Notes under the pieces: generated by a model | Told to the model about the DNA's origin: nothing | What the model saw: only the letters and a program-made list of their open reading frames with translations | Databases searched by the model: none | Position numbers and translations under genes: made by a program | In this document: positions 21,800 to 26,489 of the stretch, in pieces | Layout of the letters: every line of letters starts with the position of its first letter | Numbering within the stretch: position 1 is the first letter of the stretch | Source of the DNA: Gemmatimonadota bacterium | GTDB lineage: Bacteria; Gemmatimonadota; Gemmatimonadetes; Gemmatimonadales; Gemmatimonadaceae | Length of the DNA stretch: 40,195 nt | Reading direction: 5' to 3' | Assembly: GCA_016194585.1 (NCBI GenBank) | Contig: JACQBG010000014.1 | Span: forward strand, 1-40,195

Positions 21800-23221
21800 C
21801 TAGAAGAGCCCGACCTTGCCCTTCACCGACGCGATGAGCTTCGCCGGGTCGTAGGCGACGCCCTGCCTGAAAACTAGCTCCACGTTGCGCAGGTCCGCGA
21901 TGTGCGCCGACGGGTCGCCGGCGATCACGACGAGGTCGGCCTGCTTGCCCACCGCGAGCGAGCCCACGCGGTCGTTACGCTTCAGATACGTCGCACCGTT
22001 GAGCGTGCCCACGCGGATCGCCTCGAGCGGCGTGAGTCCCGCGTCGACGAGCAACTCCAGCGCGCGCTGGTCCGAGTAACCGGGGATCACCCCGCCGCCA
22101 CCCGTGGGGTCGGTGCCGGCGACGAGCAGCCCGCCGGCGCGGAAGAATGCCACCTCCATCGCCCCGGCCTTCGGGAAGAGCGTCGCCCACACGCTCGACG
22201 GATTGCGCTGCGCCGCCGCGTACCGCTGCTCGAACTGCTCCTTGAGCTGCGGCGTGAGCACGTCCTGTCCCGGCGGCATCGGGTGTCCGGGGGTGAACGT
22301 CTCGAAGATCGTGAGTGTCGAGGTGAGCGCGACCTTGCGGCGCACGAGGTCGGCGACGAGCGACGTGAAAGGCTCCCCCTTGGGGTCGACCGCGATGAGC
22401 GACGCCTGCACCTTGGCCTGAGCCGGACACTCGTCGGGCTTCTTGTCGGCGACGAAGTCACTCGACGCGAGGAACCCGTGCTCGAGGTCGTCGATGCCCG
22501 CCGAGGCGGCCTCGCGATACGTCACCGAGCAGAGGTGCCCGGTGATCTTGTAGCCGCGCGCGTGCGCCGCGACCGCGGCCGCGTGCAGCTCGGCGCGCGT
22601 GATGTGCATGTACGCCTTGTACGACGTGGCACCCTCGTCGGCCCAGAAGTTCACTTCGCGCGTCGCGTCGGCGGCGTTCTTGAGTTCGCGCACCTGGCCG
22701 AGGCCGAGCCCCGGTCCCTCGAGGTACGGGGCGGTCGCGTCGAGCCACGGCCCCGGCTTCTGTCCCGCGTCGATGGCGCGCTTGATGGCGAGCTCGCCGT
22801 AGCCGTTCATGTTGCCGCCGGTGCGCATCGACGTCACGCCGCCGGCGAGGTAGAGTCGCGTGAAGCTCTCGGCAAGATTGCCGTACACGCCGGGGCCGGT
22901 GGGGTAGAACAGGTGCTCGTGCACCATCACGAGCCCCGGGATGACGCTCTTGCCGGCGAGGTCCATCACCAGCGCGCCGGCGGGGATGGCGACCGTGCCG
23001 TCGTCCCCGAGCGCGGCGATCGTGCCGTCGCGCAGCACCAGCGTCTGATTCGACTTCGGCGCGGCGCCGGTGCCGTCGATCACGCGGGCGTGCGTGAGCG
23101 CGATGAGATTCGAATCCGTTCGAACGTACGTTCGAACATTGGCTGATAGCGCGGGGCGCTGGGCGCGTGCCGGGCCGGCCAGTGCCGCCGCGAAGGCTGC
23201 GAACTGCAACGACCTTCTCAC
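21800..23221 (-). CDS. Exported amidohydrolase (imidazolonepropionase-like)
   Basis: 473 residues with a signal peptide directly after the GTG start (RRSLQFAAFAAALAGPARAQ). The metal-dependent amidohydrolase body follows: HEH in VMVHEHLFYPTG, Lys in TSYKAYMHITRAEL, His in GYKITGHLC and in DDLEHGF, and Asp in LVAGTDPTGGG, then the C-terminal small domain (VGSLAVGKQADLVVIAGDP). It probably hydrolyses a cyclic amide or peptide-like bond in the periplasm. The GTG at 23221 lies at the base of a long repeat hairpin and no Shine-Dalgarno sequence is visible, so initiation here may be weak or structured. A 20-bp perfect palindrome lies inside the coding region at 23118-23137. Confidence 0.87.
   Translation of the reverse strand: MRRSLQFAAFAAALAGPARAQRPALSANVRTYVRTDSNLIALTHARVIDGTGAAPKSNQTLVLRDGTIAALGDDGTVAIPAGALVMDLAGKSVIPGLVMVHEHLFYPTGPGVYGNLAESFTRLYLAGGVTSMRTGGNMNGYGELAIKRAIDAGQKPGPWLDATAPYLEGPGLGLGQVRELKNAADATREVNFWADEGATSYKAYMHITRAELHAAAVAAHARGYKITGHLCSVTYREAASAGIDDLEHGFLASSDFVADKKPDECPAQAKVQASLIAVDPKGEPFTSLVADLVRRKVALTSTLTIFETFTPGHPMPPGQDVLTPQLKEQFEQRYAAAQRNPSSVWATLFPKAGAMEVAFFRAGGLLVAGTDPTGGGGVIPGYSDQRALELLVDAGLTPLEAIRVGTLNGATYLKRNDRVGSLAVGKQADLVVIAGDPSAHIADLRNVELVFRQGVAYDPAKLIASVKGKVGLF
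23118..23137. repeat. Perfect 20-bp palindrome inside the amidohydrolase gene
   Basis: GTTCGAACGTACGTTCGAAC is identical to its reverse complement and AT-richer than its surroundings. It encodes NVRTYVRT just after the signal peptide cleavage site. It could be a protein-binding site or a chance result of repeated Val-Arg-Thr codons. Confidence 0.6.
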
Positions 23222-23297
23222 CGCAGAGGACGCGGAGGACGCTGAGGACTTCAAATGCCGGCCTGAAGTCCTCCGCGTCCTCTGCGTCCTCTGCGGT
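23220..23297. repeat. GAGGACGC-type inverted repeat (copy 1)
   Basis: Two 34-bp arms (23220-23253 and 23264-23297) differ at only two positions and enclose a 10-base loop. Each arm is built of 9-base units of the form GAGGACGCN, which on one strand read Glu-Asp-Ala. It lies between the acetamidase stop (23320) and the amidohydrolase start. It could act as an intergenic terminator or an mRNA-stabilising stem. Purine-rich repeats of this kind are scattered in several phyla and often read into the ends of proteins. The second copy lies at 24330-24469. Confidence 0.85.
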
Positions 23298-23319
23298 AGA
23301 CCCCCTCCCACTGTAGTCC

Positions 23320-24492
23320 TCACTTCCGCGCCCCGGCCAGCACCGACTTCGCGATCATCATGTGCACTCCCACGTTGCCGTCCACGAGCTGCGTGATGTG
23401 CAGGTCCGCCGCCATCGACGCGGCCTGGTACGCCTCGGTCTGCGTGATCCCCTTCGTCTCCATCAGGAACTTCACCATCTGCCGTATCGCCACCTGCGTA
23501 GCCACGGTGAGACTCGTGTCGGTCCCCATCACGATCCAGTGCGTGGGGGTCTCGATGCGCGGCCAGTCGAGCTTCATGTCCTTGCGCACGACGAGCTGGA
23601 TGCGGCCGCGGAGGTCGGTCTCGATGGCCGTCTGGTCCACCTCGCCGTCGCCCTGCGCGGCGTGGCCGTCGCCGATCTCGAGCAGCGCGCCCTTCGTGAA
23701 GACGGGCACGTAGAGCGTCGTACCGGCGACGAGCTCGCGGTTGTCCATGTTCCCCGCGTGCGGGCCGGGTGGATTGCTGCTCACGCGGCCGAGCGAGGCG
23801 GCCGGCGCGACGCCCATCGAGCCCCAGAACGGCCGCAGCGGCACGACGATCCCCGGCGCGACCTCGGCGGTCATCCGCTGCCGGTCGAGCGCGATGAGGC
23901 GGCTGCCGCGCACCTCGCACAGCTCGCGGAGGAAGCCGCTGCAGCCGTTGTAGCCGTAGGCGAGCGGGAGCGTGATCGACTGGATGCGCACCTCGAGCAC
24001 GTCGCCCGAGTCGGCGCCTTCGACATAGATGGGGCCGGTGAGGATGTGGCCGCCGGGCCCCTTCAGCGAGCCGGTGTCCTGCGCGACGATGTCGCGGAGG
24101 TCCTGCGGCACGTCGGCCGGCTTCACTCCCATCCGCTCGAGGCCGACGGGGGTGTTGGTGAGCATCGTCTCGACGTCGACGATGTCGCCGTTCTTCACGC
24201 GCAGCGCGGGTTTCGCTTCGGACCAGTAATAGCCGTAGGCGACGGTGGCCGGCGTGGCGGGGAGCTGGTGGACGGTCGGCGACTGCGCGGCGAGTGGGGC
24301 GGAGACAAGAGCGGCGAGCAACAGCAATTCTACCGCGGAGGACGCAGAGGACGCAGAGGACTGCAAGTACTTGTACGTGCGGTCCTTCGTGCCCTCCGTG
24401 TCCTCCGTGGTGAAAGCCGTTGCCGTTGCCGTTGCCTCTGCGTCCTCCGCGTCCTCTGCGGTAGAATTCGCAGTCGTCTCGAACCTCCTCAC
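23320..24492 (-). CDS. Acetamidase/formamidase family protein with a repeat-encoded insert in its signal peptide
   Basis: 390 residues from GTG. The body, residues about 70-390, matches the FmdA/AmdA family: GPIYVEGADSGDVLEVRI, PHAGNMDNRELVAGTTLYVP, FTKGALLEIGDGHAAQGDGE and the C-terminal ETKGITQTEAYQAASMAADL. These enzymes release ammonia from short amides. The GTG at 24492 overlaps the peptidase stop by 4 bp (GTGA), a strong sign of the real start. It begins MRRFETTA, but the hydrophobic signal core (LLLLAALVSAPLAAQ) appears only at residues 56-70. In between are about 46 residues encoded by a repeat (TAEDAEDAE ... SSASSASSAV). A TTG at residue 56 is an alternative start giving a very short signal. 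Export may be impaired. Confidence 0.85.
   Translation of the reverse strand: MRRFETTANSTAEDAEDAEATATATAFTTEDTEGTKDRTYKYLQSSASSASSAVELLLLAALVSAPLAAQSPTVHQLPATPATVAYGYYWSEAKPALRVKNGDIVDVETMLTNTPVGLERMGVKPADVPQDLRDIVAQDTGSLKGPGGHILTGPIYVEGADSGDVLEVRIQSITLPLAYGYNGCSGFLRELCEVRGSRLIALDRQRMTAEVAPGIVVPLRPFWGSMGVAPAASLGRVSSNPPGPHAGNMDNRELVAGTTLYVPVFTKGALLEIGDGHAAQGDGEVDQTAIETDLRGRIQLVVRKDMKLDWPRIETPTHWIVMGTDTSLTVATQVAIRQMVKFLMETKGITQTEAYQAASMAADLHITQLVDGNVGVHMMIAKSVLAGARK
24330..24469. repeat. Composite GAGGACGC-type inverted repeat (copy 2), read through in the acetamidase gene
   Basis: The outer arms run GAATTCTACCGCAGAGGACG and its near mirror CCGCGGTAGAATT, each about 34 bp with two mismatches, and are bounded by GAATT on both sides. 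The inside carries a second repeat type (CACCACGGAGGACACGGAGG, complement of about 24391-24411) and three GTTGCC hexamers (24416-24434). The distance between the two GAATT boundaries is 139 bp, not a multiple of 3, yet the present reading frame stays open across the whole element. Confidence 0.85.
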
Positions 24493-26489
24493 GGCTTCAC
24501 TCCCGACTGTCGTGTCCATGTGTTGTCGTTCGGGTTCCGGTCCGGGAACCGCCGCATCGGGTCGAGCGTGATCGATTCGATCGTGCGCCCGCCGAAATCG
24601 AGCACGGCCTTGTAGCTCTTGCTGCCGTTGAACCAGACGTCCACCGGCCAGGTGACGACCGCCGTCGTCGGGTCGGTCATGACGGCGTTCTTCATCGGCG
24701 CGATCGCCGGGCCATCGGGCGCGAACTGCACCTTGAGCACGATCGGCGACGGCATCTGCCCGTCCTGCCGCACCGTCACGGTCGTGCGCGTACCGCTCGT
24801 CGTGACGCCGGCGATGGAGCCATCGACGCTCTCCGTCGTGAACAGCCAGTAGTTCCAGAACCAGCCGAGCTCGCTCGCATGGTTCTTGAGCGCGTTGCTC
24901 ATGAAGAAGACGTAGTCCCACGGCGACGGGTGCTTGAACATCCAGGCGCGCGCCCACTCGCGGTGCGCGCGCTGCACGGCGCTGTCGCCGACGATGCCGC
25001 CGAGCATCGACAACATCATGGGCGTCTTGCTGTACGTCGTGAATCCGTAGAACTGCGGACCGTCGTAGTTCGCGTTCCACATCATCGGCGGCTCGGCTTC
25101 TTCGCCGCTGACGCGCCCGTAGCTCTGCCCCGGGCCGTCGAGGTTGGCGGGACGCGCGGCACGGTCGGCCGCCGAGAGGATGTTCATGTACTGGTTGAAC
25201 CCCTCGTCCATCCAGCCGTACCAGGTCTCGTTGTTGCTGACCGTCATCGGCCACCACTGATGACCGGTCTCGTGGTCGGCGGCGCCGCGATTGGAGTTGA
25301 TCACCATCGGGTACTCCATGCCGGCGCTGGGCCCGTCCTGCAGCGTGAGTTGCGGGAACTGGTAGGGGAACCATTGCTTCGAGTAGAACTCGAGGGCGTG
25401 GCGCGCGATCTGTCCGGCGTCGGCGTAGAGCGCCGAATCGCCCGGGAGGTAGTACATGTTGACCGGCAAGGCGCCCTTGGTCGGGATGGTCGCGCGCGTC
25501 GCCTTCCACACGAACTTCTTCGCGGTGGCCCAGGCGAAGTCGTTGACGGTGTCGGCGACGAAGTGCCACACCAGCCGGTCGCCGGCGGCTGTGGCTCTCC
25601 CCGGTCCGATCTCGTCTGGCCCGACGATCGTGCGCACCTCGTCCGATTCGAGCACGTGCGTGAGCCGCTCACGTGCCGCGGGGGTGAGCACGTCCTTGGC
25701 ATTCTGCAGCACGCCGGTGCCACTCACGATCCACCCCGCCGGGACGTCGATCTTCACGTCGAAGCGGCCGAAGTTGTTGTAGAACTCCGAAGGGCCGAGG
25801 TACAGCTCGGGATCCCAGCCGCGCAGGTCGTCGTACATGGCGACGCGCGGATACCACTGCGTGGGCTGGTAGAGCGTGTCGGCCCAGCGCTGCGTCATGC
25901 GGTGGGCGACGCCCGGACCGCCGGGCACCTTGTGGCTCCACGCGATCTCGAGCGTCGCGCGCCCATGCGCGGGGATCGGCTTGGCGAGCTCGATCGTCGC
26001 GCGCGTGGTCGCGAGTCCGCTCACGCGGTTCTCCGAGGGAGCCGGCGGCGGCGCGCCGCGGGCGCCCCGGGCCGCGGGCGCCGGCGAGAGGTTCACCGGC
26101 TGTCCATCGACGCTCATGCGCGAGATGGCGAATCCGTCGGTGAGCTCGGCGGGCACCCACGGCACGGCGCGCGGCACGTTGAACAGGAACATGTTCATGT
26201 CGAGGCGCAGGACGATCGTCCGCAGCTCGTCGGGGCTGTTGTTCTGCAGCGCGATCGTCTCGTGCCCCGAGATGCGCGAAGTGGCCGGGTCGAGCCGCGC
26301 GTCGATCGTGTAATCGGTGCGCAGCTGCCAGTACTTGCTGGTGGGACGCCCGGTCGAATCGCGCGTCCCCGCCGCGAGCGCCTTGCGCATGATGTTCGTG
26401 ATCGGCACGTCGCGCCGGATGGCGCGCTCCGGCGCCTGCGCCAACACGAGAACCGGGACGAGCGACGCGAGGAGCAGTGTGCGAGTCAT
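24489..26489 (-). CDS. Exported M1 family metallopeptidase (first of two)
   Basis: 666 residues with a signal peptide (MTRTLLLASLVPVLVLAQA). The zinc site is intact: HETGH at residues 406-410 and the third ligand Glu429 in WYGWMDEG, the gluzincin spacing HExxH-x18-E. The upstream substrate motif is GMEYPMV rather than the classical GxMEN, common in this branch of M1 relatives. A Pro/Ala-rich insert (about residues 150-170) lies in the N-terminal beta domain. It probably trims peptides in the periplasm. The ATG at 26489 is chosen for the signal peptide. The stop overlaps the acetamidase start by 4 bp, so the two are coupled. A hairpin lies upstream between it and the second M1 gene. Confidence 0.92.
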   Translation of the reverse strand: MTRTLLLASLVPVLVLAQAPERAIRRDVPITNIMRKALAAGTRDSTGRPTSKYWQLRTDYTIDARLDPATSRISGHETIALQNNSPDELRTIVLRLDMNMFLFNVPRAVPWVPAELTDGFAISRMSVDGQPVNLSPAPAARGARGAPPPAPSENRVSGLATTRATIELAKPIPAHGRATLEIAWSHKVPGGPGVAHRMTQRWADTLYQPTQWYPRVAMYDDLRGWDPELYLGPSEFYNNFGRFDVKIDVPAGWIVSGTGVLQNAKDVLTPAARERLTHVLESDEVRTIVGPDEIGPGRATAAGDRLVWHFVADTVNDFAWATAKKFVWKATRATIPTKGALPVNMYYLPGDSALYADAGQIARHALEFYSKQWFPYQFPQLTLQDGPSAGMEYPMVINSNRGAADHETGHQWWPMTVSNNETWYGWMDEGFNQYMNILSAADRAARPANLDGPGQSYGRVSGEEAEPPMMWNANYDGPQFYGFTTYSKTPMMLSMLGGIVGDSAVQRAHREWARAWMFKHPSPWDYVFFMSNALKNHASELGWFWNYWLFTTESVDGSIAGVTTSGTRTTVTVRQDGQMPSPIVLKVQFAPDGPAIAPMKNAVMTDPTTAVVTWPVDVWFNGSKSYKAVLDFGGRTIESITLDPMRRFPDRNPNDNTWTRQSGVKP

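Follow-up and report, generated by a model that had tools for sequence, protein, structure and literature searches.

The window analysed here, a 40,195-nucleotide stretch of contig JACQBG010000014.1 from a member of the Gemmatimonadota (assembly GCA_016194585.1; genome G000), contains a hairpin in the spacer between two genes read in the same direction, an acetamidase and a secreted amidohydrolase. The spacer measures 98 nt from the acetamidase stop codon (23322-23320) to the amidohydrolase GTG at 23221. The arms of the underlying inverted repeat are 34 nt long, 94% complementary and built of tandem 9-bp units of the form CGCRGAGGA; features are listed in Table 1. Folding of the minus-strand RNA of the hairpin with its flanks gives -86.8 kcal/mol (z -7.8), a value that 0 of 200 shuffled sequences equalled. 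The first-pass annotation of this DNA had described a stem of 34 bp between the two genes with the start codon at its base, and the inverted repeat, the fold and the gene coordinates all bear this out; the GTG shares two bases with the outer end of the repeat. The copy is young or conserved enough for its GA spacers still to pair between the arms. Four of the six reading frames through the hairpin are free of stop codons. A terminator scan of positions 23000-24700 (i.e. for a stem followed by a T tract) found no sites, and a promoter scan of the same interval found no promoter-like sites.

Table 1. Features of the acetamidase-amidohydrolase junction and of the two element copies in the window.
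Feature	Coordinates	Strand	Remarks
Secreted amidohydrolase (PF01979)	21800-23221	-	
Amidohydrolase GTG start	23219-23221	-	Position backed by orthologs
Outer-left palindrome arm	23220-23253		Three 9-bp units: CGCAGAGGA CGCGGAGGA CGCTGAGGA
Palindrome loop, 10 nt	23254-23263		
Outer-right palindrome arm	23264-23297		Units in inverted copy
Outer flank with CCTCCCAC motif	23298-23312		By eye; motif outside many copies in own genome; GAGTGGGAGG on other side
Alternative in-frame GTG	23309-23311	-	30 codons upstream; frame through hairpin
GAGG	23318-23321	-	6 nt ahead of alternative GTG; overlaps acetamidase stop
Acetamidase/formamidase (PF03069)	23320-24492	-	Likely native start GTG 24492-24490
Second, longer element copy	24331-24463		In frame in acetamidase, between MRRFETTAN and ELLLLAALVSAPLAAQ

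The GTG at 23221-23219 had been put forward as the only start that gives a good signal peptide. Its position is upheld by the orthologs. Counted from this codon, the Q in the AQ(R)P signal-peptidase region comes at position 21; among the genus orthologs it comes at positions 18-22 in G001, G002, G008, G012 and G016, and at 28 in G011 (by eye), i.e. the distance from start to signal-peptidase region is the same within three residues in 5 of the 6 readable genus orthologs. This comparison omits the G004 row (L134), which was misplaced, and the 43%-identical proteins of G010 and G017; more distant orthologs agree in kind. Rather than starting at a later codon, which had been named as grounds for refutation, the homologs place the start at GTG 23221-23219. 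It is not, however, the sole in-frame start. A second GTG with an upstream GAGG lies just past the acetamidase stop, and the open frame from there through the hairpin would add 30 residues, although the orthologs give no support for its use. The reported absence of a Shine-Dalgarno sequence next to GTG 23221 also holds, and is not peculiar to the hairpin because none is seen by eye in G012 or G002, which carry the same gene pair without the repeat.

The same two genomes bear on the suggestion that the stem acts as a conserved leader regulating the amidohydrolase, either by tying initiation to ribosomes that have translated the acetamidase or by uncoupling the two genes. A strong stem placed exactly between stop and start, a GTG without an adjoining Shine-Dalgarno sequence, and a GAGG-GTG pair coupled to the acetamidase stop are what such a leader might look like. 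Against this, the comparison with a locus lacking the repeat, proposed in the first-pass annotation as a check, shows hairpin-free junctions in G012 and G002 (spacers of 42 and 63 nt, respectively, by eye) and so speaks against a conserved leader; the nearest relative, G014, lies outside this comparison, its contig beginning at amidohydrolase residue 63. The stem is moreover a copy of an element found at about 16 other sites in the genome, some of them within coding sequence, including that of the neighbouring acetamidase. Rfam returned 27 matches for the hairpin, all under gathering scores and mostly to long-hairpin miRNA models, and thus gives no known structured RNA leader. We consider the leader explanation unlikely, and a leader-specific RNA was dropped as the main reading since the stem is dispersed and missing in relatives. 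As a by-product, the insertion might couple initiation at the second gene to the first, or might uncouple the two. An effect of the hairpin on amidohydrolase expression is possible, and a regulatory role of the window copy, possible too, would need no special design.

The dispersal of the element is evident throughout the 3.34-Mb genome. The unit pattern matches 81 times (43 + 38) compared with 4 (2 + 2) for a reversed-pattern control, and BLAST with the hairpin gives 44 matches. These matches group into about 17 sites, the smallest palindromes measuring 80 bp and the largest, nested arrays, ~440 bp, together with some single arms; many of the sites lie at gene borders. A crude codon model was used to score what genes surround the sites, and no count is drawn from it because read-through frames made several calls unreliable. 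Contig C23 ends (L070) and contig C44 begins (L073) within element copies; the repeat therefore probably breaks the assembly, and the copy number is a lower bound. By eye, most copies end in TCTACC...GGTAGA, paired on both sides. The motifs GAGTGGGAGG / CCTCCCACTC stand outside the arms of many copies (in the window at 23300-23312), and the element may in truth extend outward as far as these motifs. We are all but certain that the window hairpin is one copy of this dispersed element; it is a solo iteron palindrome, i.e. one without a gene, that has been inserted here.

The longer copy inside the acetamidase occupies the signal-peptide region of that gene, whose likely native GTG start at 24492-24490 overlaps the stop codon of an upstream peptidase gene (24491-24489). 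Five of its six reading frames are stop-free, compared with four for the hairpin, so insertion of the element near a gene start need not destroy the protein. As to a target-site duplication, AATTC is found on both sides of this copy, but TTC/GAA is also part of the usual element ends. Rickettsia palindromic elements are palindromes inserted in frame into coding sequence, and are not known to have periodic iterons or a linked nuclease gene. In its in-frame position the palindrome of the acetamidase resembles them.

Sites in G000 were compared with the corresponding places in relatives. Shorter elements, of CACAGAGGA type, occupy the places of C19:10544 and C19:14422 in the nearest relative, G014; some copies therefore predate the split between the two genomes, and those at the two shared sites are not recent jumps. 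At one site the units differ between G000 and G014 in step on both arms. No element was seen by eye at C19:14422 in G010, G017, G004, G009, G015, G006, G016, G008 or G001, nor at C19:10544 in G010. At L068 (G000:C19:14426-14691; L319 on G014:C746) the element sits at the junction of two genes that almost touch in G004, G001, G016 and G008, and the downstream G000 gene, whose ATG seems to be lost, may start within the element. No case of insertion was seen between near-identical strains, and the empty sites in relatives are too diverged for borders to be placed and a target-site duplication defined.

A sister repeat of the form CRCRGAT-NNN (L330-L349) occurs in the same genome both solo and around a gene for a GxxExxY protein. 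Its unit CCRCRGATNNNCRCRGAT matches 44 times (control 0), and the resolved copies comprise ten paired palindromes, the gene lying within one. Several of the solo palindromes contain a core hairpin, GGGGGAACGAC...GTCGTTCCCCC, that is also found in larger window-type copies. The corresponding count for CGCTAAT arms in G214 is 31 (control 0); one pair surrounds a GxxExxY gene, and most copies end in AAC...GTT outside the units (by eye). Arm-to-arm identity in eight G214 pairs, one of them (L310) off register, is 160/168 for units and 5/48 for spacers; in the sister repeat the corresponding values are 140/150 and 10/30. Pairing between arms would keep the spacers too, and the units thus look like protein binding sites. 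On sequence conservation in these two families, the pattern points to 7-bp iterons that would be read by a protein, rather than to RNA pairing.

GxxExxY proteins often have N-termini that resemble a translated repeat of the window type. Three GxxExxY genes are present in G000, two between inverted arms of a related GAT-type unit and one (L002) without arms. None of the three has CGCRGAGGA arms, and the cognate partner of the window copy is therefore missing, lost or in trans. Searches of 200 Gemmatimonadota genomes gave 121 GxxExxY matches, of which 104 were scored for flanking inverted repeats after exclusion of 9 near contig ends and 8 with cut flanks (L163, L170, L172, L176, L181, L189, L199 and L216). 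A score of at least 36 was reached by 46/104 genes, compared with 0/156 control windows and 16/2938 mismatched flank pairs, and 58 genes fell below this threshold; at a score of at least 50 the count was 34/104, with no control window and no mismatched pair. The best self-match of the arms (lags 3-15 tried) fell at lag 8, 9 or 10 in 37 of the 46, with two ties and seven of another kind. Arms of the window type on both sides of the gene (score at least 26) were found at 8/104 genes and at 0/160 control windows. Some of the genes above threshold have flanks other than iteron arms; L254 in G094, for example, lies within a long (~435 bp) inverted duplication that resembles coding sequence.

Repeat and gene also occur together at the level of whole genomes. 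At least ten matches to the three-unit pattern were found in 15 of the 200 genomes, and 14 of these 15 have a GxxExxY gene (59/200 overall; P 1.3e-7). The exception, G097, has 12 pattern matches and no GxxExxY match among those listed, as is also the case for G065 and G120 with 7 and 8 pattern matches. In G064 the reversed control (122 matches) exceeds the pattern (70), and co-occurrence without this genome is 13/14; the control excess indicates that another repeat unit is abundant there. Arm similarity and protein similarity are correlated across genomes (Mantel r 0.441, 0/1000 permutations; 55 elements from 34 genomes, with a score of at least 36 and arms of at most 90 bp), as expected if arms and gene travel together, but this co-variation may reflect shared descent as well as recognition.

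Beyond the phylum, 25 genes were scored, i.e. 23 of 26 matches (L279 was partial, L293 and L295 were cut) plus two plasmids. They come from Opitutae, from MAGs of Alphaproteobacteria and other Proteobacteria, and from Sphingomonas and Fusobacteria plasmids; these two are among three plasmids taken from 8 records, the third of which, from Gemmatirosa, agrees with a G094 contig in length and place and was not counted again. A score of at least 36 was reached by 20/25, most with both arms within ~100 bp, and each has a unit of its own (CACGAAGGA, CGCTAAT-NNN, GACAGAATGAA, CGCGGAGA and others). Measured against mismatched flanks of other genomes, among which unit types are shared, only 5/25 exceed the 99th percentile of 49. 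Arms are present on the Sphingomonas plasmid and were not found on that of Fusobacteria. In the former case (L270; Sphingomonas parapaucimobilis plasmid NZ_CP155749.1) the GxxExxY gene lies between fabD and fabG with inverted arms of CGCGAAG type. As an association, the link between GxxExxY genes and iteron palindromes is strongly supported.

The linked genes belong to the GxxExxY family (TIGR04256) and to PF13366 (PDDEXK_3), with scores above the curated cut-offs; two proteins scored 131-134 bits against the TIGR04256 cut-off of 35. Among 54 GxxExxY sequences E44, D83 and K95 are invariant, and E93, Q107 and Y111 are conserved at 90% or more. The resulting arrangement, E-D-ExK-QxxxY, is that of the Cas4/RecB-like family. 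An AlphaFold2 model (mean pLDDT 92.2) has as its nearest solved structure SSO0001 (Foldseek E 1.3e-4; Z 9.9, rmsd 4.8 over 105 aligned residues), which is a Cas4 protein, followed by Hjc resolvases (Foldseek E 3.1e-3; Z 7.0, rmsd 3.3 over 84). From the modelled fold and the presence of the catalytic D-(E)xK residues, GxxExxY is a predicted PD-(D/E)XK nuclease of Cas4/Hjc-like type. It is like the Cas4/RecB-like and Hjc nucleases in both fold and catalytic residues, and unlike them in standing alone at about 120-145 residues. The likeness to Hjc is suggestive because palindromes could extrude four-way junctions. A sequence-profile search of the PDB with GxxExxY and a PHROGs search with two of the proteins gave no matches. 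The literature searched, mostly open-access and without preprints (weak evidence), yielded neither a function for GxxExxY nor an association of the family with repeats.

This protein could also be a nuclease of the host or of phage defence for which the arms serve as regulatory or protective sites, with the palindromes spreading by ordinary gene conversion or slippage and not mobilised by GxxExxY. The Cas4-like fold fits such a role, as does a weak Cas4b match to a defence model for one of two proteins (E 7.7e-4), and solo copies having units but not spacers in common would be expected of it. The other protein, however, matches no defence model; across genomes the arms vary together with the gene, as one unit; and similar inverted arms surround the gene in distant genomes. 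We regard the defence explanation as possible but doubtful.

Of the known systems, the closest parallel is that of REPINs and RAYT genes. REPINs are described as inverted doublets that form hairpins, are spread in extragenic space and are tied to RAYT genes (PMC3116915), and REP sequences are reported inside genes too (PMC3733652). The element resembles these in consisting of short inverted-repeat hairpins dispersed between genes, with gene-less copies beside a linked protein gene (PMC3116915), and, like them, is present in many copies (81 matches at about 17 sites), many at gene borders and some in coding sequence. These likenesses would also fit an actual REP/REPIN family moved by a RAYT protein (a Y1 tyrosine transposase), with the GxxExxY association being secondary. 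We find this very improbable, as the gene found between such arms encodes a PDDEXK_3/GxxExxY protein and not a Y1 protein, the arms consist of tandem 8-10-bp units in which spacers of variable sequence separate the 7-bp iterons, and the ends are usually paired (by eye) where one end of a REP would carry GTAG or CGTC as an unpaired tag. MITEs are likewise small, gene-less and numerous, with terminal inverted repeats as seen here. For our element no target-site duplication could be defined, and no transposase of a known class was found between related arms.

The best reading is a REPIN/RAYT-like system in which a nuclease replaces the tyrosine transposase. Elements of this kind are dispersed, are absent at sites in relatives, have gene-bearing copies and conserve their iterons. 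Leaving mechanism aside, it is likely that the hairpin is a solo copy of a dispersed palindrome with arms of tandem 7-bp iterons at an 8-10-bp period, that its gene-bearing kin hold a single gene, that of the GxxExxY nuclease, and that effects on the amidohydrolase are by-products. In the most likely mechanism, the nuclease would read the iterons in each arm and cut either a target or the palindrome, the latter at its ends or in the form of an extruded cruciform; break repair by the cell would then copy the element to the site or over it. Copies that are short and solo would be served in trans or be relics. The copy considered here would be one of these, placed in the spacer of two tandem genes with its edge touching the native GTG of the second, and its consequences for the amidohydrolase, i.e. 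an mRNA stem, a possible N-terminal extension of 30 codons and possible coupling, would be incidental. We infer movement of the palindromes by the nuclease with about even confidence.

The wider reading is that GxxExxY proteins are dedicated nucleases of widespread, unrecognised mobile palindromes, each reading its own 7-bp iteron, and that arms, nuclease and gene-less copies form a system parallel to REPIN/RAYT, of which the window hairpin is a gene-less member; this we hold to be evenly balanced between true and false. The association with iteron palindromes suggests what this widespread protein works on, and its function is directly testable because the palindrome around the gene provides a candidate genomic substrate. 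Such elements are also a possible source of the CAGAGGACACAGAGG-type repeats at which assemblies break and from which gene calls acquire odd N-termini (e.g. SASSASSAV). If true, a counterpart of RAYT based on a nuclease would be a second way in which bacterial genomes fill with small palindromes.
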